Shown here: piece after piece, positions 1 through 62,446 of the stretch | How the letters are laid out: every line of letters begins with the position of its first letter | How positions within the stretch are numbered: the first letter of the stretch is position 1 | NCBI GenBank assembly: GCA_030603445.1 | Contig: JAUVXU010000011.1 | Location: 1-62,446 of the forward strand | Origin: Methanomicrobia archaeon | Lineage (GTDB): Archaea > Methanobacteriota_B > Thermococci > Methanofastidiosales > NM3 | Reading direction: 5' to 3' | Length of the DNA stretch: 62,446 bases | The notes under the pieces: generated by a model | What the model saw: only the letters and a program-made list of their open reading frames with translations | What the model was told of the DNA's origin: nothing | Databases searched by the model: none | Program-made: the position numbers and the translations under genes

Positions 1-1191
1 GCGATAAGGGCCATGATTGATTCACTTAGATCAAAACTGCCAATTAAAAACATGAAAATCATGATAATTTCAAAGAATGTTAAATATTTTCCTTATGAAG
101 ACATAGAAATACTGGATTTGTTTCCTTCATTTGAAAAGAAGGCATCATCGATTTTATCCGCTGGTATGGACATTTTTTTAACATTAATCACATTTGGAAG
201 ATTAGCATTTACCAAACAAGGAAAGAAATTTATCCGCGCAGTTCATGATGCAGATATAGTAATTCATGCCCCTGGTGGTCCAGCTATAGGCGATTTATAT
301 CATGGCAAATTTGGAAATGTTGAGTTTTTTTATTTATATAGGTTGTTAATCTCACTTCTTAGACATAAACCAGTATTTTTCTATGCTCCTTCAATGGGAC
401 CTTTTTCAGGAATACTTAGAAACCACATTAGAAAATTTATACTCAAAAGAACAGATGCTATAATATTAAGAGAGGAGATTTCCAGTAGATACTTAGAAGA
501 ACAATTGGGTTTAGCTTCGTATGTAACTTTAGATTCAGCACTCCAAAACGATGTACCTACTAAACATATAAATGAGTTTTTTGATGTATTAAATATAACC
601 GAAAATGAAAAAGTAGTAGGCATGACATTAACTGATTTAAAATGGCATCCAGCATATAAAAATTTTAATAAATTAAATGAAAAGATAATACATTCGTTAT
701 CAGATGTAATCAAATATTTAATTAGTAAAGGATATAAAATACTTTTAATACCTCAATTATTCGGTGAACAAGACGACGCTTCGCTACTCGAAAGTTTCTG
801 TGAATTAAATAGAGAGAAAATATTCCTTCTTTCGCCGAATGTGGATTCATATGCACAACAAGTAATAATTTCTAGATTATTTTGTATCATTGGCATGAGA
901 TACCACTCTAACATATTTGCAGCAAAAGGAAATATTCCGTTTATTTGTATATACTACGAACATAAAGCAAAAGGATTCATGGAAAAATTAGGACTCATAG
1001 ATCTCATGATAAATATTGATGAGATAAGTGCGAGTAAAATTATCGATAAATTTACATACTTAGAAAGAAATCACGAGGGGATTAAAGAACAACTCAAAAA
1101 ACGAACTCCACAATTGAAAGAAGAATCCCAAAAAACGACAAAAATAATAATAGAGAAACTTAAACAATTGGGGATGCTAACTGATTTATAA
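1..1191 (+). CDS. Polysaccharide pyruvyl transferase family protein, 5' end outside window
   Basis: The frame is open to base 1. The residues before the first ATG (position 13) continue a plausible N-terminus, so the real start lies upstream and the gene is partial. The family (PF04230, CsaB/WcaK type) adds pyruvate ketals or related groups to cell-surface polysaccharides. Typical signs are a glycine-rich APGGPAIGD turn, a FYAPSMGPF strand, an ILREEISSRYL segment, and a C-terminal GMRYHSNIFAA motif followed by a YYEHKAKGFM stretch, where the family has its conserved RxHs and YxxK positions. It opens an AT-rich glycan gene island and is followed directly by a decayed methyltransferase. The family is fairly sure; substrate and linkage are unknown. 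Confidence 0.82.
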   Translation, partial: AIRAMIDSLRSKLPIKNMKIMIISKNVKYFPYEDIEILDLFPSFEKKASSILSAGMDIFLTLITFGRLAFTKQGKKFIRAVHDADIVIHAPGGPAIGDLYHGKFGNVEFFYLYRLLISLLRHKPVFFYAPSMGPFSGILRNHIRKFILKRTDAIILREEISSRYLEEQLGLASYVTLDSALQNDVPTKHINEFFDVLNITENEKVVGMTLTDLKWHPAYKNFNKLNEKIIHSLSDVIKYLISKGYKILLIPQLFGEQDDASLLESFCELNREKIFLLSPNVDSYAQQVIISRLFCIIGMRYHSNIFAAKGNIPFICIYYEHKAKGFMEKLGLIDLMINIDEISASKIIDKFTYLERNHEGIKEQLKKRTPQLKEESQKTTKIIIEKLKQLGMLTDL

Positions 1192-1471
1192 AATCTGTGG
1201 TAGCGCCGAAAATAATAAGAAATTTAAAATAAGAGAGATGATGTTCAGCTTTAGAGATGAATTTACCTATTTCGAATGCTCAAACGGTGAGTGCCCCCAC
1301 ATATCCAAAATTCAAAAAAACATGAAAAGATACCATCCCTCAAATTACTACTCATTCAAGAAAGGAGAATCTAACAATTTTATAAAGTAAATTCTTAAAA
1401 AAAAGAGTCATACAGGTGTACTATTTAAAAAGAATGCTAAAGAACTAAATAACAAAAAATTAGGAAGATAA
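1181..1471 (+). pseudogene. Decayed N-terminus of a SAM methyltransferase
   Basis: One reading frame running from 1181 carries a zinc-ribbon-like N-terminus (KICGSAENNKKF, then FRDEFTYFECSNGECP and YHPSNYYSFKKGE). This resembles the start of class I methyltransferases found in glycan clusters. There is no start codon, an in-frame stop at 1388, and the same frame resumes to a second stop at 1469 with no SAM-binding domain. It overlaps the end of the preceding gene by 11 bases. It is best read as the remnant of a deleted methyltransferase gene; the family assignment rests on pattern memory only. Confidence 0.55.
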
Positions 1472-1501
1472 AGCATCTTTTTATCTTGAAGGGAATAAAA
1501 A

Positions 1502-2680
1502 ATGAAACCAAAAGTCTCAATAATAATCCTCAACTGGAACGGCTGGAAAGATACAATAGAGTGTTTAGAATCCCTCTATCAGATTACGTATCCTAATTAT
1601 GATGTTATTTTAGTTGATAATGGCTCGGAAGACGAATCTATTGAGAAGATAAAAGAATATTGTGATGGCAAAATAAAAGTTGAATCCAAGTTTTTCAAAT
1701 ACGATCCGAACAATAAGCCAATAAAGATCATAGAATACGCAAGAGAAGAAGCAGAAGCGGGTGGGAGAAAAGAAAAGAAAATTACAGATTCACCTTCAAA
1801 CAGAAAACTCACAATCATAAAAAACGAGAAGAATTACGGGTTTGCAGAAGGAAACAACATTGCGTTAAGATATTCATTTAAAGATTCAAGTATCAGGTAT
1901 ATTGTAACATTGAATAACGATGTAATTGTCGATTCCAACTGGTTAAATGAGATGATGATAATTGCCGAAAGAGATAATAAAATAGGAAGTGTAATGCCAA
2001 AAGTCTTGCATTATGATTCCCCTCATCTTATAAATACCACTGGAATTCTTATTACCGGCGATGGTTCAGGGGCTAATAGGGGGTTTTTGGAAAAAGATAA
2101 CGAGAATTTTAGCATTATTGAGGAAATTTTTGGTCCTAGTGCTGTGTCAACATTATATAGAAAAAAAACATTAGAAAATATTAAAGTTAGGGGATGGTAT
2201 TTTGATCCTGATTATTTTGTTTATAATGAAGATACAGATTTAGCATATAGAATGATGTTGTGTGGCTGGAAATCTATATTTACCCCAAGAGCCATAACTT
2301 ATCATAAACATTCTGCTACGAGTGGCACATATTCTGCCTTTAAATCATATTATAGTCAGAGAAATAGATGGTGGACATCTTTCAAAAACTATCCATTTTC
2401 ATATGTGATTTATTCTTATTTTTACTATGTTGTAAAAATGGTACTAATATTCAGGGCATATAAAAAAGGCGAAGGTAGAGCTCCTATTTTTGTTAAAAAA
2501 CTCTCTTTCAAAAAAATAATTTATATACTGTTAAAATCATTTTTTGATGCACATAAAGAATTACCTGCCTTAATCAAAAAAAGAAGAGAAATACAGGGCA
2601 AAAAAGTGATAAATAAAAAAACTATGAAAGATATATTTAAAAAATACAGCATTAAAATAAGTGAAATTCCTTATAAATAA
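1502..2680 (+). CDS. Family 2 glycosyltransferase, rhamnosyltransferase-like
   Basis: A 392-residue cytoplasmic or membrane-associated GT-A enzyme that probably transfers a sugar from a nucleotide donor to a lipid-linked glycan. The N-terminus (SIIILNWNGWKDTIECLESL) is the first GT2 strand. An NYGFAEGNNIA motif precedes the DXD-like LNNDVIVD near residue 140. The acceptor-site motif EDTDLAYRMMLCGWK sits near residue 247, followed by HKHSATSG. The order matches the WbbL-like GT2 subgroup. An unusual charged, lysine- and glutamate-rich insertion of about 40 residues (55-100) lies between the first strand unit and the NYGFAEGNN motif. A weak ribosome binding site (AAGGGAA) precedes the ATG. Donor and acceptor are unknown. 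Confidence 0.86.
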   Translation: MKPKVSIIILNWNGWKDTIECLESLYQITYPNYDVILVDNGSEDESIEKIKEYCDGKIKVESKFFKYDPNNKPIKIIEYAREEAEAGGRKEKKITDSPSNRKLTIIKNEKNYGFAEGNNIALRYSFKDSSIRYIVTLNNDVIVDSNWLNEMMIIAERDNKIGSVMPKVLHYDSPHLINTTGILITGDGSGANRGFLEKDNENFSIIEEIFGPSAVSTLYRKKTLENIKVRGWYFDPDYFVYNEDTDLAYRMMLCGWKSIFTPRAITYHKHSATSGTYSAFKSYYSQRNRWWTSFKNYPFSYVIYSYFYYVVKMVLIFRAYKKGEGRAPIFVKKLSFKKIIYILLKSFFDAHKELPALIKKRREIQGKKVINKKTMKDIFKKYSIKISEIPYK

Positions 2681-2685
2681 AAACC

Positions 2686-2835
2686 CTATGTTTTCTCAAG
2701 GGCTATTTTTGTAATATACCCCCCTCCAATAGGCTTTCCCTCTGCGTGATCCCCTATTTGTATATATCTTACGTTTTTAGGTGTTGTAAATATAACTCTC
2801 TTAAATTCCCATTTTTTGATGTTAGAGTTTTTTGA
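2686..2835 (-). pseudogene. Unassigned C-terminal gene fragment
   Basis: The minus strand keeps an open frame of 49 codons with no start codon. It ends in a protein-like stretch (WEFKRVIFTTPKNVRYIQIG, then DHAEGKPIGGGYITKIALEK) and a stop at 2686-2688. Its composition is that of a folded beta-rich domain rather than noise, so it looks like the tail of a lost gene. I do not recognise the family. Confidence 0.4.
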
Positions 2836-2961
2836 TTAACCTACCGTTATAATCAAGCTATTACTAAGAAATACTCAAAAAGAGCATACATATCGGTAAG
2901 TACTCCCAACGGAATACTCGAAACATGGAAAAATAGATGGAAAACTAAAAATAAGCGTTAA
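2836..2961 (+). pseudogene. Unassigned short coding remnant
   Basis: An open frame of 41 codons without a start (RYNQAITKKYSKRAYISVST, then PNGILETWKNRWKTK) ends at a stop at 2959. It abuts the decayed minus-strand fragment at 2686-2835 exactly, and no Shine-Dalgarno signal is present. It reads like protein and may be the tail of a deleted gene, but no family is recognised. Confidence 0.3.
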
Positions 2962-2975
2962 TCATAATCCTCATA

Positions 2976-3794
2976 ATGCCCAAATTACTTATGATTAAAA
3001 TAAAGCGTTGGCTTAGAAAATTACATCTGCTCTCAATAGCAGATTATTTTTTATTATTATATGAAATTATAAAAAATTATAAAAAAAATAAAACCTTCTT
3101 AAAATTTCACAAAGATTTTTCAGTACCCCCCTATATTTTAGCTTTTGATGCATATGGAACTTTAAACTGGGAATTTTATTATAATTCAGGTGTTCTTCAT
3201 GCAAAATTATTTAGCAACATCATTGAGAAATATTATTCGAATGAAAGTATTAAAATTTTAGACTGGGGATGCGGTCCGGGGCGAATTATAAGACATCTAC
3301 ATAATTTAAAGTTCCGAAAAGTTCAATTATACGGAACAGATTATAACCCAAGAACAATTAAGTGGTGTAACTTAAATTTAAAAAATATAAATTTTACAAA
3401 AAATAATTTGGCACCACCCTTACCGTACAATGATGGTTACTTCGATTGCATATATGCTCTTTCTGTTTTTACACATCTCTCTGAAGATATGCATTTTAAA
3501 TGGATTAAAGAATTATATCGAATTTTAAACCCTGATGGACTGTTAATTATTACAACCCATGGTGACAATTGTTTGGATAACAAATTACTAAACCAAATGA
3601 AACAATACCAATCGGGAAAATTAGTGATTGAGGGTGGTGTGAAGGAAGGCAAAAAACATTTCATAGCTTTGCATCCATCAAAATATGTTGAAGAAAAGCT
3701 ATTAGCTGATTTTAAAATTCTTGAACACATAACTAATGCATCTGAATTTTTAATAAATCAAGATATTTGGGTTTCAAAAAAAATAAAAAAATAA
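2976..3794 (+). CDS. Class I SAM-dependent methyltransferase
   Basis: A 272-residue protein with a Rossmann-fold methyltransferase core. The SAM-binding motif I is KILDWGCGPGRIIRHL near residue 90. A GTDYNPRTIKW acidic loop follows, then a motif IV-like FDCIYALSVFTHL and a post-motif LYRILNPDGLLIITTHG. This arrangement matches Methyltransf_11/25 proteins that methylate sugars or lipids in surface-glycan clusters. The N-terminal 60 residues are lysine-rich and precede the fold. It stands alone between decayed sequence on both sides. Its composition is as AT-rich as its neighbours, consistent with a laterally acquired island. The substrate is unknown; a glycan hydroxyl is an inference from context. 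Confidence 0.8.
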   Translation: MPKLLMIKIKRWLRKLHLLSIADYFLLLYEIIKNYKKNKTFLKFHKDFSVPPYILAFDAYGTLNWEFYYNSGVLHAKLFSNIIEKYYSNESIKILDWGCGPGRIIRHLHNLKFRKVQLYGTDYNPRTIKWCNLNLKNINFTKNNLAPPLPYNDGYFDCIYALSVFTHLSEDMHFKWIKELYRILNPDGLLIITTHGDNCLDNKLLNQMKQYQSGKLVIEGGVKEGKKHFIALHPSKYVEEKLLADFKILEHITNASEFLINQDIWVSKKIKK

Positions 3795-3949
3795 AAACAG
3801 ATAGCATTTCGCCTAACACAAGTCAAAAGTTAGTTAAGTGAATCAATATGGAAAACCCCCATATTTACGACATAAAGGGCTTTTTACCCAACAGGAAAAC
3901 CATAGGCCCAGTTAAAGGGTTCCGTGCACTACAAAGTTAGACCTGAAAT

Positions 3950-4390
3950 AACAAGGTAAGGAGGAGTTAAAGGCTGCATTCAAAAGAGATTAAAAACAAG
4001 GTTTGTGAGAATTAGATCCAATGAACAATCCAAGACTATCTTGCAAAAAAAAACATAACATGGTTTGAGAATAGTAAAAAACTGGATTAATGTTTATAAG
4101 CTAATCTAAAACGGTGTTAAAGGGGGGGTTTATTGTTAAGGTTTCCCTAGACAAAAGAGAAACTTAAGAGAAGAAAAAATTAATATAAATTTTAGATGAT
4201 ATTAAAAAAAAGCTAATCGTGAAACCGACCAACTCTTAGTATTCCACTCAGAGAACTAACAGATGCCTTTTTAGATGCTTTTAATTTTCAAATGCCAAGA
4301 CATGCAAAACAGATTGTAGCCACCTCAAAAGAGGATAAGCAAACGAATATAATAATGTTATAGGGTGTTTTAGATGGTGTAAAAGAGTTG
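3950..4390 (+). pseudogene. Heavily decayed transposase-like remnant
   Basis: This 823-base gap (3795-4617) has no intact gene. Patching frames gives short protein-like pieces: an HTH-like stretch (ILQKKT, HGLRIVKNWINVYK near 4030-4100), a basic linker, then KKLIVKPTN and a tail near 4230-4300. These pieces look like the N-terminal helix-turn-helix region of an IS630-type transposase, broken by several stops and shifts. The assignment is tentative. Confidence 0.35.
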
Positions 4391-4452
4391 ACATAGTACG
4401 AGCTAGGTTAACTACTGCCAGCAAATGTGTCAAACGGGACATAGCTCCTGAT

Positions 4453-4546
4453 TTTGACAGTTAACAATTAAAAAGAATCCTTGAATTGTGAATCATGGCA
4501 AATCAATACAAAACAAGGACATATATATTTTTAGCTAACTGTCAAA
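4453..4546. repeat. 11-bp inverted repeat, spaced 72 bp
   Basis: TTTGACAGTTA at 4453-4463 is exactly repeated in inverted orientation as TAACTGTCAAA at 4536-4546; extending to 15 bases gives about 13 matches. The arms flank a short AT-rich stretch right after the decayed transposase-like region. They could be the ends of a small mobile remnant or a hairpin downstream of the minus-strand gene that ends at 4618. Confidence 0.5.
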
Positions 4547-4617
4547 TTCAAGCTATAATCCATATTTGTCCCTAAAATTGTTTTATATATCTACATCTTT
4601 TATATAATATATTTCAT

Positions 4618-6729
4618 TTAATTATCTCTCTTTATGCGAAGTTCAAAAATTTCTAGAGTATATTTTTCATTAATCCTAGTATTTGTGAATTTACCCCAAT
4701 CCCAACGAATTTTTGATATATCAAATGAAAAATTGTTTATATGTTCTACTTTTATTGTTTTATATACTTTATTGTAAAAAGTATTAAATCTTTCTTGCGT
4801 TGGTGTTATTAAATATATTCTATAATCCTCCTTTTCCCATATATCTACCATTTTAGAAAATTTTTTCTCAAATTCAATATTATTATCCCAGATATTTATT
4901 GTGTCCTTCAAGAGGTAGAATTGTTTAAGATCACTAGTCCAAAGAAAGATAGCATTTTTATTAAACATATATTTAAGAGGTAACGACACTGCTACATCAG
5001 TACCTACCCCATAAGATATGATTATAGATCTATCATCAAAGAACTCTGACAGCTCACCTACTTTATCAATATAACCTTCAAATTGGGGTTGAATCTGTGT
5101 GTTATTCATTGTTATATTTGACATAATTAAAAAAACTACTAAAGAACATGCCAATATTTTGCCTTTAAAAGATACTTTTTTAATTTCGAAAAGTATATAT
5201 CCAATAAAAATGGATAAAGAAGGAATTACAACAGTTATATATCTTCTCATAGCCCAAGGGTATACAGGATTGTTATGAAGCGATGTTATATAATAAAAAA
5301 AATAAGTAAAAAATAGTGATAAAAAAATTACAACAGCCATTTTTTTTGTTTTTATTATTAAAGTAATAGTTGCTAACAATCCTAATATCAATCCAATGAT
5401 TGTCATAAACCAAGTTAAAGATTGAATATTTTTAAATCCTTCACCATAGTCAGTATTAGGGGAGATGATAAATAGATATGACAACCAAAGCATAAATAAT
5501 AATAAAAAAATATATCGTGCAAATTTAGTGATTTTAATCGTGTTTTCTTTGTTTTTAAATTTAGATATATCATTCATTTTTAAAATGGGTATTATTAAAA
5601 AAATAAAAAATAATATTACAAAAAGAAATAAAGACGTATAAGCTATTGGTAATAAACTAACATCAAAAAGTGGCATATTTGGTGACATTGCATAGATATA
5701 TTTTTTCATATGTAAATTAACATAAATAACATAATACAAAAATATAATTAAAAGTGGAATAATAAAATAAAGATGTATTTTTTCAATTTTTTTACAAAAT
5801 TTTAAATAAATATAATATATTATTAAAGTTGGTAATATAAATATTGCATCGAATCTTATAAAGAATAGTAAACCAAAACATAAAGCTGAGATAATACCAA
5901 AAATTGGATTTCTTTTTCTTATAAAATATGCATATAATAACAATCCAGAAAAAAATATAAATTGAAATAATATCTCAGGACTAGAGTATTGAGCAAAATA
6001 TACATTAGCATAGTTAGTTGCAAGTAAAGAAGAACCAAGTGCCCCAACTTTCCAATTAAACAGCTCTTTTCCAAATAAATAAATCGCGATAATACTAAGT
6101 GTAGCAAGCAAAGGAGAAAGATATAAAAAATAATTATATCCAAATAATACGTAAAATAATGCCAACCATGTTATATGTAACGGCGGCCGGATTTGCCTCA
6201 TCTTACCTAAATCAGGATCATCAATAGATATGCCAGGAAATTGATATCCATTTAAAAGACTTTGGCTATACATCCTATAAAAAACAGGAATTACATCCTG
6301 TGGCATCTTGTCCATAATAGGATCGTATATATTACATGATCCTGTAGTAGCTATGTTAACCCCCATATTTATGTGAACTCCAACATCATGATACATTGAA
6401 GCTTCTTCCGTGGGATGAAAAAAAAGTAAGATGCACATTAAAATAATTGTTATAAAAGTAATATTTTCTAAAGTGTGTGAAGAATTGAACGAAACATTAA
6501 AACTCATTTTTTTATAGTAATTAAATGAAAAAAGAATAATTGAATAAATGATTTGTAATAACAAAATATTCTTGAGAGAAAATATGTTTAATTGAGTTAA
6601 TATAAGTAAGAGTATAGATGTAAGAATAAAACTTATTAAAATTAATATGTATGTAAATTCAAATAATGTATCCTCTTTGTTTTTTCGAAATAAATTATAT
6701 GTCAAATAACCCGGGATTAAAAAGGACAT
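4618..6729 (-). CDS. Polytopic membrane protein, GT39/ArnT-like glycosyltransferase
   Basis: A 703-residue protein with at least a dozen hydrophobic membrane spans and a C-terminal soluble part of about 150 residues. An acidic-histidine loop after the third span (FHPTEEASMYHDVGVHINMG) fits the first extracytoplasmic loop of GT-C enzymes, where an acidic residue acts in catalysis. A second loop carries RQIRPPLHITWLALFYVLFG, a typical ArnT/PMT pattern. Such enzymes transfer a sugar from a polyprenyl phosphate carrier on the outer face. Codon use is extremely AT-rich. The frame stays open about 18 codons upstream of the ATG in a hydrophobic stretch without a standard start, so the N-terminus is uncertain. 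Function is inferred from topology and motif style. Confidence 0.65.
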   Translation of the reverse strand: MSFLIPGYLTYNLFRKNKEDTLFEFTYILILISFILTSILLLILTQLNIFSLKNILLLQIIYSIILFSFNYYKKMSFNVSFNSSHTLENITFITIILMCILLFFHPTEEASMYHDVGVHINMGVNIATTGSCNIYDPIMDKMPQDVIPVFYRMYSQSLLNGYQFPGISIDDPDLGKMRQIRPPLHITWLALFYVLFGYNYFLYLSPLLATLSIIAIYLFGKELFNWKVGALGSSLLATNYANVYFAQYSSPEILFQFIFFSGLLLYAYFIRKRNPIFGIISALCFGLLFFIRFDAIFILPTLIIYYIYLKFCKKIEKIHLYFIIPLLIIFLYYVIYVNLHMKKYIYAMSPNMPLFDVSLLPIAYTSLFLFVILFFIFLIIPILKMNDISKFKNKENTIKITKFARYIFLLLFMLWLSYLFIISPNTDYGEGFKNIQSLTWFMTIIGLILGLLATITLIIKTKKMAVVIFLSLFFTYFFYYITSLHNNPVYPWAMRRYITVVIPSLSIFIGYILFEIKKVSFKGKILACSLVVFLIMSNITMNNTQIQPQFEGYIDKVGELSEFFDDRSIIISYGVGTDVAVSLPLKYMFNKNAIFLWTSDLKQFYLLKDTINIWDNNIEFEKKFSKMVDIWEKEDYRIYLITPTQERFNTFYNKVYKTIKVEHINNFSFDISKIRWDWGKFTNTRINEKYTLEIFELRIKRDN

Positions 6730-6843
6730 TATTAATTCTGCTGCAAGTAAAATACAGTTTATTATCTTCCCTCTCCCTAAATTTAATCAATATATCTTTA
6801 CCAATAAATTTATGTTATTGGAGATTATATCTAACCCCTATTT

Positions 6844-7812
6844 TTATTTAATTTTCTTATTATTTTTGAAATAATCGCTTTTTATGTAATATAAAACCTC
6901 TTCCTGAATCCTTTTCTGGCGGCCTACCATGTCGGATATCATTGCCAGCAGCATAATAAGAGAACCAATTACTATAAAAACTACACCAACTATTACCAAC
7001 GTATTATAAGGCGATACTACCCCCTTGTAAATCCACCTTACAAAAAGAGACAAATTTATAAAGCCTCCAAATAGCAACAACGCAAGTCCAGGCAATCCGA
7101 AAAACTTTAAGGGAGTTATATCCCTCATCGTCCTTAGAATTATCAACAAGGAATTAAGGCCATAATGAACAGGATTTTTTACTATCCGAGATTTTCTTTG
7201 TTTTTTGTATGTTATCGCAACAGGGACCTCAGTTACTACCATCCCTTTTGAGATTAAATCGATAAGTACTTCTTGAGTATATGTAAAATTTCCAAAGAGA
7301 TTCATACGAAGAGCTGCTTCTCTTGAATATGCTCTAAAACCACACTGGGTGTCACTAAACTTAACGTGAGTGACAATACTTACAATTTTAACAAATATTT
7401 TGTTTCCTAATCGCTTCATAAAAGAAAAATTCGGAATATGCTCTTTTGCAAGAAATCGTGATCCCGTGACCATATTGGCATTTCCTTTCAAAATTGGTTT
7501 TATCAATTTTTCAATATCATTTGAATCGAACTGACCATCAGCATCAATGCTAACTATTATGTCGGCCCCACTTGCCAAAGCTGCGTTTATTCCGATCCTA
7601 AATGCATATCCTACGCCCCTGTTTCTCTCGTATGAAACTAATTTAGTTTTTCCATATCCAAGAACTACGCCTACCGTATCATCAGTTGATCCATCATCAA
7701 CTACCAATGCCTCGATCTCATCAATTCCCCCTATTTGTGAAGGAAGGGTAGTTAGAGTGTCCAAGATATGCTCCTTTTCATTGTAAGCAGGAATAATAAT
7801 TACAAGCTTCAT
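6844..7812 (-). CDS. Family 2 glycosyltransferase, polyprenyl-phosphate mannosyltransferase-like, with membrane tail
   Basis: A 322-residue enzyme of the dolichyl-phosphate mannose synthase type, which loads a hexose from a nucleotide sugar onto a polyprenyl phosphate at the inner membrane face. The GT-A core shows VVDDGSTDDT near residue 40, the metal-binding SIDADGQFDSND near 93, GSRFLAKE near 122, and the acceptor loop DTQCGFRAYSREAA near 154. Two hydrophobic spans follow (about 235-258 and 270-297), as in two-TM DPM enzymes. Its start overlaps the stop of the upstream membrane gene by four bases (ATGA), so the two are translationally coupled. The product is a likely donor for the neighbouring GT39-like proteins. 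Confidence 0.88.
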   Translation of the reverse strand: MKLVIIIPAYNEKEHILDTLTTLPSQIGGIDEIEALVVDDGSTDDTVGVVLGYGKTKLVSYERNRGVGYAFRIGINAALASGADIIVSIDADGQFDSNDIEKLIKPILKGNANMVTGSRFLAKEHIPNFSFMKRLGNKIFVKIVSIVTHVKFSDTQCGFRAYSREAALRMNLFGNFTYTQEVLIDLISKGMVVTEVPVAITYKKQRKSRIVKNPVHYGLNSLLIILRTMRDITPLKFFGLPGLALLLFGGFINLSLFVRWIYKGVVSPYNTLVIVGVVFIVIGSLIMLLAMISDMVGRQKRIQEEVLYYIKSDYFKNNKKIK

Positions 7813-9398
7813 TTTGGGTCCTCCTTTATTTTTAGCTCATACACTATAAAAGAACTATCGATAGAACCGTCCTTATTTACAAATTTTTTGTCTCCTTCAT
7901 ATATATTAATCATATCAAAATTATTGCTAATTGCATCTGCATATCTTTTCATATTTGCATAATCATACCCATCGACCCATCCAGATAAAAACCATACTTT
8001 ATCTCCTTTGTCAAGAACCGCTTGAATTATATATATAAGTGAATCCTCATCCTCACTTTCGCTACCAAGGAAAAAAAAGTTGATAACATCTTTTTCGGCT
8101 CTCTCCTTTCCAAGAACATATTCGCACCATGCGCCATATCCTGTTACAATGAGATCCACATCTTCGGACCCATCTTCAAGCCAGTTCATATCAAACGAAT
8201 CTATTGCAATAAAATTCCTGATTTTTGACTCGTCCGAGCCCCATATAAAGGCTTGTGAAAAAGAGGTATGAGCAGAAAAAGCAATTGACACTAAGAGAAT
8301 TATGGCAACGCATGAACAAAAATATTTTTTGATTGTCCTTCTTTCTTTTAACCCTACATAGATCTCTTCTAGCCCTATTGCCAAGAATAAAAGCACAATT
8401 AAAAGCGAAGGTAATAATTGCCGCCCCACCCAAGAGGAATATCCTAAAAATACGAAAACATAAGCTAAAGCAATGCCCAGAAGTAGAACAGTTTCTTTTT
8501 CGTATGTTTCTAATCCTTTTTTAACTCCTAAAATAAATGTTATGGCCTGAAATATTCCTAGAAAAGTAAGTAATGGGGTCGTTGCCTCTGTTCCTACAAA
8601 ATACATATTTGTTGGGGGTGTGTTTAGGGGAACTGTCATTAGTCGTGTAGTTGCCCTGATATTTCCAATATAATTTAACTCCCTGTAAAAACCACCTCCA
8701 GAAGCAATTCCGGAAGCAAGAGAAGGGTGGAAAATCATATTAAATCCAAAAAGAAATAAAAAGATAGATAAGCTAAACAAAATATCCATATTGCATCTTA
8801 AGTTGAATTTGATTTTTTTTGAATCTATAAAAACAATCTTTCTTACTGATAATAGATAAAGAAATATAATTACTGCAAAAATTAGATTGGTCGGTTTCAT
8901 AAAACATATGAAAAATATCAAAAATGAAAAAAAGATCGAAAACGAAAAAGACCTTTTTTCTTCCATTTTTTTTGTAATTATTAATGCAAATAAAATAAAA
9001 AATAAAATAATGATGTCCCATATAACAACCTTGCTCATAACAACTAATGTAGGATTTATAGCCACAAAAGCTGAAAACATAAGACATACACCAGATGATA
9101 ATTTAAGGCATTTTGATGAAAAGAAATAAGAAAGTGGAATTATAGCAATCCCATATAACGCTATTCCTATTTGGGAGGAAAATACACTATTTTTTATCAA
9201 TAGGAAGGGAATTATTGCTATTGATCTCCCTGGCCATGCAGGAACATATTTAGGCGTATCAAAAGAAATTATTCTAATAGCATCAGATAATATCCTATAT
9301 GAATCAAAGGCATGGACATACTCCCCATCCAGCTTATAAAGTCTTAAGAACGCACCAACTGCAACTACTACCAGTAGTATTAAGTGTTCCCGTTTCAT
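7809..9398 (-). CDS. Polytopic membrane protein, GT39-like glycosyltransferase
   Basis: A 529-residue protein with about ten membrane spans and a C-terminal soluble domain (about 395-529) rich in acidic residues. The first outside loop follows the LRLYKLDGEYVHAFDSYRIL pattern, in which GT-C enzymes carry the catalytic aspartate. A GRSIAIIPFLL loop fits the same fold. It probably transfers sugars from a lipid carrier to protein or glycan outside the cell. It sits directly upstream of, and overlaps by four bases, the polyprenyl-phosphate glycosyltransferase that could make its donor. An AT-rich TATA-like element inside a palindrome lies about 25 bases upstream, suggesting a leaderless transcript. 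Assigned from topology, motif style and context. Confidence 0.65.
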   Translation of the reverse strand: MKREHLILLVVVAVGAFLRLYKLDGEYVHAFDSYRILSDAIRIISFDTPKYVPAWPGRSIAIIPFLLIKNSVFSSQIGIALYGIAIIPLSYFFSSKCLKLSSGVCLMFSAFVAINPTLVVMSKVVIWDIIILFFILFALIITKKMEEKRSFSFSIFFSFLIFFICFMKPTNLIFAVIIFLYLLSVRKIVFIDSKKIKFNLRCNMDILFSLSIFLFLFGFNMIFHPSLASGIASGGGFYRELNYIGNIRATTRLMTVPLNTPPTNMYFVGTEATTPLLTFLGIFQAITFILGVKKGLETYEKETVLLLGIALAYVFVFLGYSSWVGRQLLPSLLIVLLFLAIGLEEIYVGLKERRTIKKYFCSCVAIILLVSIAFSAHTSFSQAFIWGSDESKIRNFIAIDSFDMNWLEDGSEDVDLIVTGYGAWCEYVLGKERAEKDVINFFFLGSESEDEDSLIYIIQAVLDKGDKVWFLSGWVDGYDYANMKRYADAISNNFDMINIYEGDKKFVNKDGSIDSSFIVYELKIKEDPK

Positions 9399-9411
9399 TC
9401 AGAGTTTACTT

Positions 9412-10172
9412 TTAAACAAGATTTAAATATCTTGTCCCGTATTTAAGATTTAGTTTGAGCATATTATTTGTAAATACTAGAAACTCCTTCACAAATCTTA
9501 TATCTATCTCATCTTTCAAGTTTATGCTATCAGTCTGCCAACGGTTTTAGGATAATATCTGGAGTATTCATATAATCTTTCCTTGTCAATGAAACTATAA
9601 TATTCTGTTATTAAGGAAGTTATCGTGCTTTCTTTTTTCCCGTTTTTCTTGTATAAATATGTCAAGTCCAAAATAGTTTTTTCAAGATTGCTGTATCTTA
9701 AGAGTATGTTGTTCTCTGTTTTCACTTCCTTTATTCCAAAAAACAGATCTGGCTTTATTTTCACAAACTTGAAATTCTCATTATAAATTCTCATTGACCT
9801 AACTCTGTTGAACTTGTCGTTAATGACATAGTTTACTGGAAAAAACTCGTGAGTAAGATTTAACAATTTAAGCGCCGTGTAACTGCCAAAATACCAGTTT
9901 TTTATCCCCCGCATTTCCATTCCCTTCGAAAGGAGTTCATATGATGTATACTTTATTATCCCCGTTCTTTTTTCGTTGAAATCCTTAACATAGAAAATCC
10001 CTCTAAAAATAGTAAGCAAAAATCCTTTGTTTAACAATAATTTTTTTGTATTTTCATATTTTAGATCAAGCTCTCTGCATAGCTCTTCCAGTTCTTCTGA
10101 TGTGATAAACTTCTTTTCTTTAAGCATGAAATTCCTTATAATCATGTCTATCTTTTTCATATTATATTTCAC
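9412..10172 (-). pseudogene. AbiEi-like antitoxin/transcriptional regulator with 3' frameshift
   Basis: The intact frame runs from 10172 to 9522 (216 residues). It starts with a winged-helix region (FITSEELEELCRELDLKY) and continues into an AbiEi-type domain (FGSYTALKLLNL, then NNILLRYSNLEKTILDLTYL near residue 160). AbiEi proteins repress their own operon and neutralise an AbiEii nucleotidyltransferase toxin. No toxin gene is adjacent on either side. A neighbouring frame continues with protein-like sequence (SINLKDEIDIRFVKEFLVFT and a further 18 residues) to a stop at 9412. The 3' end is therefore probably shifted by one base near 9525-9530. This could be a real mutation or a sequencing error. 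Without a partner it may be a solo regulator or a decaying relic. Confidence 0.6.
9417..9434. promoter_or_regulatory. Palindrome around a TATA-like core upstream of the GT39-like gene
   Basis: CAAGAT TTAAAT ATCTTG is a perfect 6-bp inverted repeat with an AT core, 19-36 bases upstream of the minus-strand ATG at 9398. The core fits an archaeal TATA box for a leaderless transcript, so the flanking arms could be an operator. It also lies in the frameshifted tail of the AbiEi-like gene. Confidence 0.4.
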
Positions 10173-10294
10173 CTAAAAGGATGATTTATAATATGTAATA
10201 AAGGATTTATAAAACTTTTCATTCTAAAAATAGTAATTGTCCGGACAAAAACTACTAATTTTTTCCTATATTAACCCAATTCTTATGTGATTAA

Positions 10295-10588
10295 TTATAC
10301 TCTCCTAACCTGAAACACGACCGTCCCACCGCCTGTTAAAGGCGGCCCAGGGTCTACGCACTGCAGGTATGCCTCGTCTGAATTACCAGGCGTTGCAAGC
10401 CCGAGGGCAACGTAGTCCGCGTTCGGATTATCAAGGATTATTGAGTAGTGAAGAAGTGTGGCAAGCGCATGGGTGCACAGCGCATCAGTCTTTTCCAGAA
10501 TTATTTCAGGGTCCTTTATCGTTATCTTGTCCCCCTTCTTATAAACGAGGCATCTTCCCCTTATCTCGTGGACAATAATTTCCAGCAT
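10295..10588 (-). CDS. TIGR04076 family protein
   Basis: A 97-residue protein with the family layout: an N-terminal EIRGRCLVYKKGDKI stretch, a central IILEKTDALCTHALATLLHY segment, and a C-terminal strand ending in VVFQVRRV. Small TIGR04076 proteins are widespread in anaerobes and archaea and have no established function. Two cysteines (14 and 38) are visible; the second lies next to a histidine, which would allow a metal or redox role, but that is speculation. It is flanked by non-coding or decayed sequence on the upstream side and is probably monocistronic. Confidence 0.8.
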   Translation of the reverse strand: MLEIIVHEIRGRCLVYKKGDKITIKDPEIILEKTDALCTHALATLLHYSIILDNPNADYVALGLATPGNSDEAYLQCVDPGPPLTGGGTVVFQVRRV

Positions 10589-10761
10589 GGCATATTTTAT
10601 GATATCATGCCTTAATTATCTTTTTGTATAGAATCAATTTCATCAATAAGCAGGAATCTTTTCATGATGACAAGTTCCTAAACATATCGGTAAGTTTTGA
10701 TTAAAACTTATCAAGTATATCGGTAGGAATAGCATATATCGAACAATCGTTCAATCTATTG

Positions 10762-10915
10762 TTACGATTTTAAGAGGCTTAATATCTCTTTTGTAGTGTA
10801 AACTTTGATGAGACAATTCAACTGTAATGCCAAGGCTAAAAAAGGTGTATCCTTCTCATCTATGCCTTTTATCTCTTCATAAACATTCTTTATTTCAAAA
10901 ATTCGGCACAAAATT
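10762..10915 (-). pseudogene. Decayed PIN-domain (VapC-like) C-terminus
   Basis: The minus strand encodes FEIKNVYEEIKGIDEKDTPF, LALALQLNC and then KVYTTKEILSLL before a stop at 10762-10764. IDEKDTPFLALAL is the characteristic third acidic motif region of VapC-type PIN ribonucleases. The usual GDKHL-type motif expected between LNC and KVYTT is missing, so an internal deletion is visible, and the N-terminal half is absent. It fills most of the 354-base gap between 10589 and 10942. The rest of that gap holds an inverted repeat (TAAGTTTT/AAAACTTA near 10690) and nothing else I can support. Confidence 0.6.
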
Positions 10916-10942
10916 TAACATCCCTTCCTAACATCTTATCAT

Positions 10943-11434
10943 ATGGTCACAAGCAACAATACAGAGACCAAGATAGCGCTTCTTGCATCTTTTGTAGTTG
11001 GCATTTTAATAGTCGCATACTCCTTCACGTTTGAAGATAAATCAAACACAATATATGCAACACTTCTCTATACTCCTTTAGTAGTATACGCGTTTTTGGC
11101 ACTATTAGAAAAAGCCAAAGACACGCATTTAGAAACATTCAACTACGCCCTTATGGCAATTTATGCGATAAGCTTTTTGCAGCTGTTGGTAAAAGGTTCT
11201 GAAAAGCTAACATCATATGGCGTCATCATATTTATAATCCCAATAATAGTTCTGGGATACGTTGCAACAGAGAAGAAAATTAATGTTTTTGCACTTTTTA
11301 GAAGCGTATCATCTGTTGCGGTCTTCTTTGCTGTAAATATGTTCTTGCCATACGAATGGCATGTTTGCGCTTTTGTGGCCCTAAACGCAGCGATACTTAC
11401 ATACTTCGTTTTCGATCACGTCAAAACTAGCTGA
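10943..11434 (+). CDS. Small polytopic membrane protein, function unknown
   Basis: A 163-residue protein that is almost wholly hydrophobic, with about six predicted membrane spans: LLASFVVGILIVAYSF near the start, LYTPLVVYAFLALL, YALMAIYAISFLQLL, GVIIFIIPIIVLGYVA, a span near 120-135, and a final ALNAAILTYFVF. Short charged loops separate them. It ends 8 bases inside the 3' end of the convergent membrane gene. I do not recognise the family. The pairing with another membrane protein of similar style suggests a common envelope role, which is an inference. Confidence 0.6.
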   Translation: MVTSNNTETKIALLASFVVGILIVAYSFTFEDKSNTIYATLLYTPLVVYAFLALLEKAKDTHLETFNYALMAIYAISFLQLLVKGSEKLTSYGVIIFIIPIIVLGYVATEKKINVFALFRSVSSVAVFFAVNMFLPYEWHVCAFVALNAAILTYFVFDHVKTS

Positions 11435-12290
11435 CCCAATTTTTCTTGTCAAGTTCTTTTATGATATCGTTTGCCATATCAAGCTTTTCATTTATGCCAT
11501 CTTTTAGCTTTCTATCGGAAGGATCAGCTTTTATTCTATGAAGCATCTCTAAATAGACATCGTTAATCTCATTGTACTCCTTGTATAAAGAGAAGTACTT
11601 TGATGAATTAGAATTTTGCGCCTTTTTGACAAACAGCTCAAGCTTTTTTTCAAATCTTATCCATTCTTTTGACATCTCGTCTGCAGTTTTACTGTCCTTA
11701 GAATCTCCTTTTTCATCTTCTAATTCGTCTTCATCCTCTTCTAAGATTAGCATGCTCAAGGCAGCTATCAAGGCCCCGCCAAGTACTGAGACAAGATATG
11801 ATATATCACCTATCTGGCGTGTCTTGTACCAGATTACAACTGCCCCGATAACAGACATTACCACAATAAATGCATGATCAAAATTAGATGGAAGATTAAT
11901 ATCAAGTTTTAGCGGAACGCTAAAGCCCTTGCTTTCTCTTTCCTCATCCTTGTTAGTAAGCAGGAGAAAAGCTCCCAGCGCCAGGATGACTGCGATGAAA
12001 TAATAAATGTTGAAATAGCTCATCGCGTCCTTTCCAAGAGCAGTGGCTACTATGCTTCCGAAAAATACCACTAAGAGGGTTGTATACAGATAGTTTAGCA
12101 CTTTGTTTATGTTGTGAAACGATATTAGTTCCATAAGATATAGCAAAAACATTGTATTTACCATCACTAAAAAGAACAGCAACGCGTACATCACGTAGTT
12201 TTGGGTGTTATAGTAGTATAACGCCCCGATTGACGCCCATAACAAGACAAGCGTAAAACATGATGGTACAAGAATCCAATCTCTTCGCAT
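11427..12290 (-). CDS. Membrane protein with acidic linker and cytoplasmic helical tail
   Basis: A 287-residue protein. The first about 190 residues form seven or eight hydrophobic spans (for example VVFFGSIVATALG and AFIVVMSVIGAVVIWY). A strongly acidic linker follows (EEDEDELEDEKGDSKDSK, about 185-203). The last 85 residues are charged and helical with coiled-coil character, rich in lysine and glutamate, ending NDIIKELDKKNWVS. No enzyme motif is visible. It converges with and overlaps the 163-residue membrane protein by 8 bases, so the two are not in one operon. The family is unknown; a scaffold or sensor role is possible but not shown. Confidence 0.6.
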   Translation of the reverse strand: MRRDWILVPSCFTLVLLWASIGALYYYNTQNYVMYALLFFLVMVNTMFLLYLMELISFHNINKVLNYLYTTLLVVFFGSIVATALGKDAMSYFNIYYFIAVILALGAFLLLTNKDEERESKGFSVPLKLDINLPSNFDHAFIVVMSVIGAVVIWYKTRQIGDISYLVSVLGGALIAALSMLILEEDEDELEDEKGDSKDSKTADEMSKEWIRFEKKLELFVKKAQNSNSSKYFSLYKEYNEINDVYLEMLHRIKADPSDRKLKDGINEKLDMANDIIKELDKKNWVS

Positions 12291-59433: not shown

Positions 59434-59637
59434 TTATTTCATATATGTCTCTAGCGGCCTTGTTTTATCCGCCCCTTTAAGATTGTTGACCTTCTCAAAT
59501 ATCATGACATCAGATATTACATGCACCTTATATTTGTCAAGATGCTTTATGCCATGTTTTTCACGTAATGATTTAGGGATAGTTACGCGCCCTCTAATCC
59601 CTATTCGCAGTATTTCTTCTTCCTTCATTTTTCCCAT
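59434..59637 (-). CDS. AbrB/SpoVT-type small DNA-binding protein
   Basis: A 67-residue protein with a swapped-hairpin AbrB fold, seen as ILRIGIRGRVTIPKSLREKH and GIKHLDKYKVHVISDVMIFE. Such proteins act as transition-state regulators or as antitoxins. It overlaps the AAA ATPase stop by one base (TAATG), so the two are translationally coupled. The partner is unusual for AbrB antitoxins, as no PIN or MazF toxin is present. Confidence 0.82.
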   Translation of the reverse strand: MGKMKEEEILRIGIRGRVTIPKSLREKHGIKHLDKYKVHVISDVMIFEKVNNLKGADKTRPLETYMK

Positions 59638-60833
59638 TACTCTTCTAATATTATATCCTTGATGTGCCCAGGTATCTCATAATGCCCTTTTTTGTTGCGC
59701 AGCATCCCCATTGAAGTAAGCTCCTCAAGGTCGGCGTATACGTGTGTTGGTTGTTCCTTGATGGCCTTTGACATCTGAATATAGGTCACAGGGCCCCCGC
59801 CAAACTTATCGATAATAGCGTTAATTAATATTCGCAGGTCCTCAGGCACCTTTGAGATATACTCGTCAAGGGAGTTTGGAGCTGCAACTATGCGTGTCAC
59901 AAAACGATCATCAATAATATCTATTACAGGGTCTCTGGCAGCCGATGCCAATATGCTATGGAGTGTGCGAAGAAGTATGCGCGGGTTCCCATTTGCAATG
60001 TTGTTGGACAACTTGACAGCAGATTCGTCAAACGGGAAAAGAGAATCTATTGTATCATCAATTCGAACTAGTGACAATCTCTTCTTGATAAGCTCAAATG
60101 CCTTCTTATCTGTTAGCTGCTCACACTTTAGCTCTGCGTGCAGACGAATAATAAAAGCGGGGAATTCAGATTTTACTCTATTATAAAAATCTGGTGTGCA
60201 TGCAAAAGAAAATATGCAGCCGCTAGGCATATCAGAAATGAAAGCACGCAATGATTCAAAAAACTGTATCAGATCGGATTCTGAGGCTGTTGTAACGTTT
60301 TCCATCTCATCAAGTAGTATTGCGGAAATATCCTGGGTCGCAAGCCCTTCTTTAAGCTTTCTTGCAACCTCTTGTGGATCGTACGTCTCCCTCTTTAATA
60401 CGAGGCGGTCAGTAGATTCTGATTCAGGAGGATTTAAGAAAAAGCGCTTAATCGCTTCAATTATTCCTGGTTTCTCCTCGATTGCTCCCGCATCTTCTTT
60501 ATTTTGGAAGACATTTAGTATGCCTTGTGATATTGCCAATATATCATTAGTATCAATCTTTTGAAAGTGCACAAATCCGCCAGAGTCTGTTATAAGCTTT
60601 CGGACGCCTTTTAATCTCTGCGTCTTTCCTGTTCCAAGTTCGCCTACTATCGAGATAGCTATGCTTGATCTTTTGTCTATGACCTCTGATAATATTTCTG
60701 CCAAACGTGTGTCTATGCCTTGGGATACGTGTATCTCCTCCACGTTCGTAATTCCCTCGCTTGACAAAATGCTAAATGGATTTTTGGATAAAGCAAACTT
60801 GGAATAATCAGGAGGATTTGAATTTTCGTACAT
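59637..60833 (-). CDS. AAA+ ATPase with C-terminal winged helix, ORC/STAND-like
   Basis: A 398-residue ATPase. Walker A is GELGTGKTQRLKGVRKLI near residue 64 and Walker B is ISAILLDEMENV near 180; the sensor-like region is FSFACTPDF. An arginine-rich lid (RLHAELKCEQLTDKKAFELI) follows and the C-terminus is a winged helix (VTYIQMSKAIKEQPTHVYAD). The lay-out resembles Orc1/Cdc6-type or archaeal STAND ATPases, but the typical Cdc6 motifs are incomplete. It is coupled to the AbrB-like gene downstream. The function is open: DNA-bound switch or stress regulator. Confidence 0.75.
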   Translation of the reverse strand: MYENSNPPDYSKFALSKNPFSILSSEGITNVEEIHVSQGIDTRLAEILSEVIDKRSSIAISIVGELGTGKTQRLKGVRKLITDSGGFVHFQKIDTNDILAISQGILNVFQNKEDAGAIEEKPGIIEAIKRFFLNPPESESTDRLVLKRETYDPQEVARKLKEGLATQDISAILLDEMENVTTASESDLIQFFESLRAFISDMPSGCIFSFACTPDFYNRVKSEFPAFIIRLHAELKCEQLTDKKAFELIKKRLSLVRIDDTIDSLFPFDESAVKLSNNIANGNPRILLRTLHSILASAARDPVIDIIDDRFVTRIVAAPNSLDEYISKVPEDLRILINAIIDKFGGGPVTYIQMSKAIKEQPTHVYADLEELTSMGMLRNKKGHYEIPGHIKDIILEE

Positions 60834-61019
60834 TAATACACCTTATTTTCTTTTACAGATAAATAAATATAAATCTTGCTATTAAACTGCATTTTATCAT
60901 ATAATCTGGTTTTTGGAATAAATAACGCCTCCAAAAGGAAAAGCACGATTTTAGTATTATTATACAATAAAACTATTCTACCCACAACATATATAAATCC
61001 TTATCCTAACATATCTCAA

Positions 61020-61151
61020 AAAGGGACGCGTCTGTAACTTACCTAATCCATCAATGGTATGCCATTGCATTGCCCAATTTTTGAAGGACGGTGGCTTAAG
61101 TCCTCCCTTTTCACGATTTCATATCTACAAATACGATTTTAAGGTTGGAGC
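61020..61151 (+). promoter_or_regulatory. Structured leader upstream of the membrane winged-helix gene
   Basis: A TATA-like CATATATAAATCC (near 60987) implies a start about 61015 and a leader of about 130 bases, long for an archaeon. It holds a perfect hairpin CAATGG-TATG-CCATTG (61052-61067) and AGGAC ... GTCCT (61085-61104). A regulatory RNA is possible. The rest of the 318-base gap (60834-61151) shows only promoter-like AT sequence. Confidence 0.4.
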
Positions 61152-62147
61152 ATGAAAAAAGTATTAATCCTTACCCTGTTTTTCATACTATGCGGCACGA
61201 TGATTGCTGCATCTGCAAATGAATCTGCGTATGATGCCATAGTGGTGCGAAACGATATTCCAATAGAATATATAATCGCCGCGCCGTATGCCGCAACACA
61301 CAACATCCCGATTATGCAGGTAGCAAAAGAAAGCCTGACTGGTGAGGAGGAAAAACAGCTTAGCGGTTACTATCAAAACGGGGCAAGACGCATACTAATA
61401 CTTGGGGGCATGCAGTCTGCCATCTCAGAGGATATCGAATCCACCATCAGGGCGATGGGATATGATGTTGACAGAAAGTGGGGGCTTGGCAGGGAAATCA
61501 CCGCAGCCATATTTGCAATAGATCTTTGGCAGACCTCATCAGATGTCGTTCTTCTTAACGGATCGGTGCCAGAATCGTACCTTGTTGGCATGCAAATCGC
61601 GATGAATCTGGAATCCCCAATACTACTAACAGATGACAACTCCCTACCAGATGTCACAAAGAAGGCTCTTGAAGAGCTAGGGTGCAAGATGATCTATGTG
61701 GTGGGGCCTTCTATAGATGATAGCATTCTTGACGAGATAACTGCAATGAACATTAACTACAAGCGCATAGGAACAGACATTAGTCCACATGAAGTGGAAC
61801 AGGATTCTAAAACAGACATATCCGACCTGATCTCACCGATCCCTTTTATACTTGGCATTATTTGTGGTGGTGTGCTGCTCTACACACTGTTAAGGATACG
61901 CACATCAAAACGCATGCCTGAAGTCCCTTTATTCGTGCTAACAGAAGACGAGCGCAAGGTGGTTGATGCAATAGGGAAGTCTGGAGGGGAACTACGCCAA
62001 GAGCTGTTGCCAGACCTTACCAACTTCTCACGGCCAAAAGTATCCCGCATAGTAAACGACCTTGAAGGGAAGAAAATTTTTATCAGAGAGAAGAAAGGAA
62101 AAACTTATAAAGTGAGGATAGCGAAGAAGTTTATCAACAAAGACTAA
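61152..62147 (+). CDS. Membrane-bound winged-helix regulator with cell-wall-binding-type ectodomain
   Basis: A 331-residue protein. A signal-anchor (VLILTLFFILCGTMIAASA) is followed by an external domain (about 25-215) of the CW_binding_2 type: AAPYAATHNIPIMQVAKESL, RRILILGGMQSAISEDIEST, then SDVVLLNGSVPESYLV and PILLTDDNSLPDVTKKALEE with MIYVVGPSIDD. One span (IPFILGIICGGVLLYTLL) leads to a cytoplasmic winged helix (LTEDERKVVDAIGKSGGELR and FSRPKVSRIVNDLEGKKIFI). It thus looks like a one-component transmembrane sensor that reads the cell envelope and binds DNA inside. The ligand and target genes are unknown. Confidence 0.82.
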   Translation: MKKVLILTLFFILCGTMIAASANESAYDAIVVRNDIPIEYIIAAPYAATHNIPIMQVAKESLTGEEEKQLSGYYQNGARRILILGGMQSAISEDIESTIRAMGYDVDRKWGLGREITAAIFAIDLWQTSSDVVLLNGSVPESYLVGMQIAMNLESPILLTDDNSLPDVTKKALEELGCKMIYVVGPSIDDSILDEITAMNINYKRIGTDISPHEVEQDSKTDISDLISPIPFILGIICGGVLLYTLLRIRTSKRMPEVPLFVLTEDERKVVDAIGKSGGELRQELLPDLTNFSRPKVSRIVNDLEGKKIFIREKKGKTYKVRIAKKFINKD

Positions 62148-62168: not shown

Positions 62169-62324
62169 ATGGAATGTACTTCCTGTAAGAGAAAAATAAC
62201 ACCAAAAGAGAAAATGGTAAAATTCCCGTGTCCAGAGTGTGAAATGGAAATCGTCCGATGCGAGAAATGCAGGGTCCTGGGAAATAAGTATAAGTGCCCA
62301 GGATGCGAGTTTGAGGGACCATAG
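62169..62324 (+). CDS. Zinc-ribbon protein upstream of aEF1 beta
   Basis: A 51-residue protein with four CxxC pairs: CTSCKRK, CPECEME, CEKCRVLG and CPGCEFEG, giving two zinc ribbons. This small protein is conserved directly before elongation factor 1 beta in many euryarchaea (the HVO_2753-like type) and is thought to bind nucleic acid. It begins 21 bases after the membrane regulator and 32 bases before the elongation factor gene, probably in one transcription unit with the latter. Confidence 0.85.
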   Translation: MECTSCKRKITPKEKMVKFPCPECEMEIVRCEKCRVLGNKYKCPGCEFEGP

Positions 62325-62356: not shown

Positions 62357-62446
62357 ATGGCAGATATGAACACCGTTGCTACATTAAGAGTTATGCCTGA
62401 ATCATTAGACATTAATCTTGAAAATCTAGAAGGCACCATAAAAGAC
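62357..62446 (+). CDS. ef1b: Elongation factor 1 beta, 3' end outside window
   Basis: Only the first 30 codons are in the window: MADMNTVATLRVMPESLDIN and onwards to the edge. This is the N-terminus of archaeal aEF1 beta, the nucleotide-exchange factor that reloads elongation factor 1 alpha with GTP. The conserved zinc-ribbon gene just upstream supports it. The gene runs past the right edge. Confidence 0.85.
   Translation, partial: MADMNTVATLRVMPESLDINLENLEGTIKD

Follow-up and report, generated by a model that had tools for sequence, protein, structure and literature searches.

A predicted membrane-bound archaeal regulator with a CWB2-type ectodomain and a DUF7343 winged helix, encoded beside translation genes

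Proteins that combine a predicted DNA-binding domain with a predicted membrane span, the transmembrane transcription regulators (TTRs), are reported to be common in archaea, with the Thermococci among the clades in which they account for a high share of the signalling genes (Demey et al. 2023, PMC10269533). Very few of these archaeal membrane-bound regulators have a known signal or target. Here we describe a 331-residue protein encoded at positions 61152-62147 on the forward strand of contig JAUVXU010000011.1, an entire contig of an archaeal genome whose 62,446 bases are referred to below as the window. The protein carries a DUF7343 domain that scores above its Pfam cut-off and has a winged-helix fold, together with a membrane span at about residues 229-252 that recurs in all 29 sampled homologues; it thus belongs to the known TTR class, and its predicted function is, with good probability, that of a membrane-anchored one-component transcription regulator. 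The available portions of the main text of the TTR survey (PMC10269533) refer neither to a CWB2 ectodomain nor to this family, which may be counted there unnamed. Our literature searches, which left most subscription journals outside their scope, returned no experimental paper on the family and none that names DUF7343.

ArnR and ArnR1 of Sulfolobus acidocaldarius, which control surface structures, are likewise archaeal membrane-bound one-component regulators, as the window protein is predicted to be (PMC6396743). They consist of an N-terminal helix-turn-helix, a HAMP domain and two C-terminal spans (PMC6396743), whereas the window protein has the reversed order: its winged helix is C-terminal, it has a single span, and HAMP gave no match. 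It does not have the ArnR/ArnR1-type layout. The ectodomain has its fold in common with Cwp6, Cwp8 and SlpA of Clostridioides difficile, in which three CWB2 repeats form a triangular prism with swapped strands (PMC4973711, PMC8881574), all three repeats being required for wall attachment (PMC4973711). Clostridial anchors of this kind bind the wall polymer PSII. Unlike these proteins, the regulator has two CWB2 modules, both in the structural model and in the alignments, is tethered by a span, and is fused to a DNA-binding domain. Since two modules are present where three are needed for anchoring, 'cell wall binding' is to be read as a domain name and not as a function; speculatively, another protein, a second copy or a ligand could fill the place of the missing third side. 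DUF7343 proteins (PF24034) share the C-terminal winged helix and differ from one another in their ectodomains.

Domains, fold and membrane topology

The open reading frame codes for a real protein, which a sequence-only reading of the window had described as having external CW_binding_2-like repeats and a cytoplasmic winged helix; both domains were recovered by independent searches. CW_binding_2 (PF04122) scores 32.1 bits against a curated cut-off of 24.9, and DUF7343 (PF24034, a MarR/TrmB-like winged helix) scores 32.0 bits against 27.6, and both Pfam families are matched by all 11 members of our first alignment; a search of NCBIfam with the protein gave no match. A phmmer search of solved structures matched the C. 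difficile CWB2 proteins Cwp6, Cwp8 and SlpA with E-values down to 6.6e-11. The AlphaFold2 model, built from a shallow alignment of 11 sequences (the window and related loci), has a mean predicted local distance difference test (pLDDT) score of 80 and contains two alpha/beta modules at about 90, a long helix spanning residues 229-252 and, at residues 265-323, a complete winged helix. In Foldseek comparisons the ectodomain matches Cwp6, Cwp8 and SlpA with E-values of 1e-6 to 1.5e-8, so that the CWB2 assignment is made by fold as well as by Pfam score, and the C-terminal part matches MarR, TrmB and TFE-type domains more weakly (E-values of 1e-3 and above). A single-sequence prediction of the stand-alone winged helix is of low confidence (pLDDT 65) and is left out of the evidence.

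On the forward strand the protein begins with an N-terminal signal sequence (residues 1-22, positions 61152-61217), probably cleaved after AASA, and continues with the two CWB2-fold modules (residues 29-206, positions 61236-61769), whose boundaries at residues 29-109 and 114-206 are our own assignment. There follow the single span (residues 229-252, positions 61836-61907) with a positively charged stretch behind it, and the winged helix (residues 265-323, positions 61944-62120). Invariant residues are concentrated in the winged helix and include Q283, L286, S293, P295, L304 and G316; in the ectodomain little or no variation is seen at D35, G85, A90, R108, R114, T117, A122 and P156, and the second module carries a PILL-type motif, SPILLT, at residues 155-160.

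Hydrophobic segments at residues 4-22 and 226-244 are present in 29 of 29 homologues sampled from the window's own phylum, from a second archaeal phylum and from beyond these two, and in 28 of the 29 the C-terminal side of the span is the more positive. The N-terminal signal sequence and this positive-inside pattern together place the CWB2 pair outside the cell and the winged helix inside. Neither of the two results that would have spoken against the sequence-only reading, a model lacking a winged-helix fold or an ectodomain predicted to be internal, was obtained. The N-terminus resembles a cleavable signal peptide, with AASA directly before N, and those of relatives are similar. Of the signal anchor and single span proposed in the sequence-only reading, the span therefore stands, and the anchor is better read as a signal peptide that is probably cleaved, a choice that leaves the inferred topology unchanged.

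The same genome encodes a second DUF7343 membrane protein of 296 residues on another contig (contig 45, L070:9845-10735). It has the same C-terminal end of span plus winged helix behind a different, unassigned ectodomain, as expected if the sensors are exchangeable. Just one further CWB2 match was found in the genome (L070:11751-12983), about 1 kb from this gene; it is an exported protein of 410 residues that has no span-plus-winged-helix end.

Distribution and conservation of the family

The regulator family is old, its winged helix is common to other membrane proteins, and the regulator is no one-off fusion. Matches at E <= 1e-15 occur in 100 of the 115 genomes of the window's own phylum and in 12 of 12 genera, and 97 of these genomes have a full-length or nearly full-length orthologue, with one full-length copy per genome as the rule. 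The three incomplete matches are in genomes G111, where only residues 258-331 are covered, G018, where a stop codon divides the match into two pieces, and G020, which lies at a contig edge and matches from residue 69 onwards. In the second phylum 28 of 29 genomes have a match, nearly all of them full-length, and single full-length relatives are found in further archaeal families (f6, f15, f27 and f33); a phylum-level search centred on genome G136, the one genome of its phylum, added nothing. The closest named relatives were deposited as Methanofastidiosia, Thermococci, Methanomicrobia or unclassified archaea. The 29 sampled homologues agree with the window protein at 41-81% of winged-helix positions, as against 29-60% of ectodomain positions.

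Gene neighbourhood, mechanism and alternatives

At a distance of 21 bases behind the regulator gene comes a gene for an HVO_2753-type zinc ribbon of 51 residues (positions 62169-62324, forward strand; PF07754, E 4.9e-17), and 32 bases further on the start of elongation factor aEF1-beta (positions 62357-62446, forward strand), which is cut by the contig end and was identified by sequence and tblastn. We used tblastn to look for this gene order in relatives, and all 13 genomes that could be tested, from three families of the window's own order, have it (f1, 5/5 with the window included; f2, 3/3; f4, 5/5), one further f4 contig ending too early to be scored. Family f3 (0/2) lacks it, as do five loci of other lineages. 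Of 22 loci in the second phylum, 21 keep the order, with wider spacing; ribosomal protein L40e lies directly upstream in ten of these loci, and a tRNA gene lies between L40e and the regulator, or overlaps the apparent start of its reading frame, in 12 of the 14 loci scanned. The regulator and zinc ribbon are separated by 10-31 bases in the inspected relatives of the window's own order, and this tight spacing suggests that regulator, zinc ribbon and aEF1-beta are co-transcribed.

The conserved linkage of a membrane regulator to aEF1-beta is an unexpected feature. The only downstream neighbours kept across families are translation genes, and the conserved context is therefore one of translation and not of export. 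The exported proteins of the window had been put forward as candidate targets; we found no evidence for this in the conserved downstream neighbours and have set the idea aside.

The best explanation, to which we give a probability of roughly 0.7, is that of a membrane-anchored one-component transcription regulator. The N-terminal part would be exported, and the CWB2 pair would contact a component of the cell surface, either an S-layer protein or a glycan; a change of dimerisation or of spacing would most likely carry the state of the pair across the single span to the winged helix, which would bind DNA while held at the membrane. Its own operon of regulator, zinc ribbon and aEF1-beta would be the simplest first target, and the surface state would thereby be tied to an elongation factor. 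The parts of this proposal differ in strength. The domains, the fold, the inferred topology and the deep conservation together give good support to a membrane regulator whose CWB2 pair is external and whose winged helix is internal, and a putative role of the ectodomain in sensing the envelope is plausible. The choice of the regulator's own operon as a target is a doubtful guess from gene order, and it is unlikely that a surface-sensing membrane regulator directly sets the zinc ribbon and aEF1-beta operon in two archaeal phyla, so coupling envelope state to protein synthesis.

Several points weigh against the proposed mechanism. The topology is a prediction, and DNA binding, target and ligand are putative. 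Inspection by eye of upstream regions of orthologues, made in place of a formal motif search, revealed archaeal promoter-like elements and no obvious shared operator. In Thermococcaceae-like genomes the gene order is kept in none of 26 loci and the regulator lies away from the aEF1-beta cluster, so that the linkage is not required there.

The last of these points also bears on a rival that we give about even odds, namely that the protein is a genuine regulator whose place beside the zinc ribbon and aEF1-beta genes reflects inherited gene order of no regulatory significance, its targets lying elsewhere, for example among cell-surface genes. The Thermococcaceae-like genomes keep the regulator and lose the linkage, and a convergent FEN1 gene behind aEF1-beta is also common to f1 and f20 loci, as an inherited block would show; the tight spacing (21 bases here and 10-31 in relatives), however, is kept across families whose other flanks differ. 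It is rather improbable that the ectodomain is instead a passive surface anchor, with the protein responding to a membrane or cytoplasmic signal and not to the envelope. In favour of that explanation, conservation is lower in the ectodomain than in the winged helix and no ligand is on record, yet the two-module ectodomain is found in every full-length orthologue, and its near-invariant residues exceed the needs of a mere spacer. The least probable alternative, for which we see little chance, holds that the winged helix tethers the chromosome, or another macromolecule such as RNA or the translation apparatus, to the membrane, the CWB2 pair serving as the outside anchor. It can draw on the translation genes as conserved neighbours, on the occurrence of winged helices in non-regulatory proteins, and on weak Foldseek matches that include TFE and TrmBL2-type chromatin proteins, but DUF7343 is closest in Pfam to the MarR and TrmB regulators, and a second protein with the same domain and another ectodomain fits sensors better than a structural tether.

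For the membrane regulator favoured here, its retention next to elongation factor genes in two phyla offers a concrete first target candidate. The family is widespread in the window's own phylum, including the Thermococcaceae-like relatives, and usually present in one full-length copy, and should thus suit genetics in a laboratory Thermococcus.

Upstream region and other features

A promoter-like 'tatataaa' near position 60990 would imply a transcript leader of about 130 bases (positions 61018-61151, forward strand), the start of transcription being placed from this TATA-like box. The sequence-only reading had taken this leader to be structured, and that proposal did not hold up. Its folding energy is average (-27.6 kcal/mol, against -26.4 +/- 3.6 for shuffled sequences, z = -0.32), a search of Rfam gave no matching family, the sequence occurs once in the genome, and it is missing upstream of the two nearest orthologues, which have a shorter intergenic region. 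The intergenic region of the window (positions 60834-61151) measures 318 bases as against about 125 in these two relatives, an excess of about 190 bases.

Divergent from the regulator, on the reverse strand at positions 59434-60833, are genes for an AbrB-like protein of 67 residues and an AAA ATPase of 398 residues; among the families sampled, this pair stands beside the regulator only in f1, where 5 of 5 genomes have it. Behind the stop codon of the regulator in six Thermococcaceae-like loci (L051, L054, L058, L060, L061 and L072) we note a common short sequence with 'TCATCA' and 'TCAG'. A search of Rfam with these six loci returned only tRNAs and no match for this sequence, in which the two motifs, inspected by eye on the opposite strand, resemble the C and D' box elements of a C/D box RNA. 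Finally, positions 1-12000 of the window have a G+C content of 26-36%, as against 37-48% elsewhere in the window, and are perhaps an acquired region.
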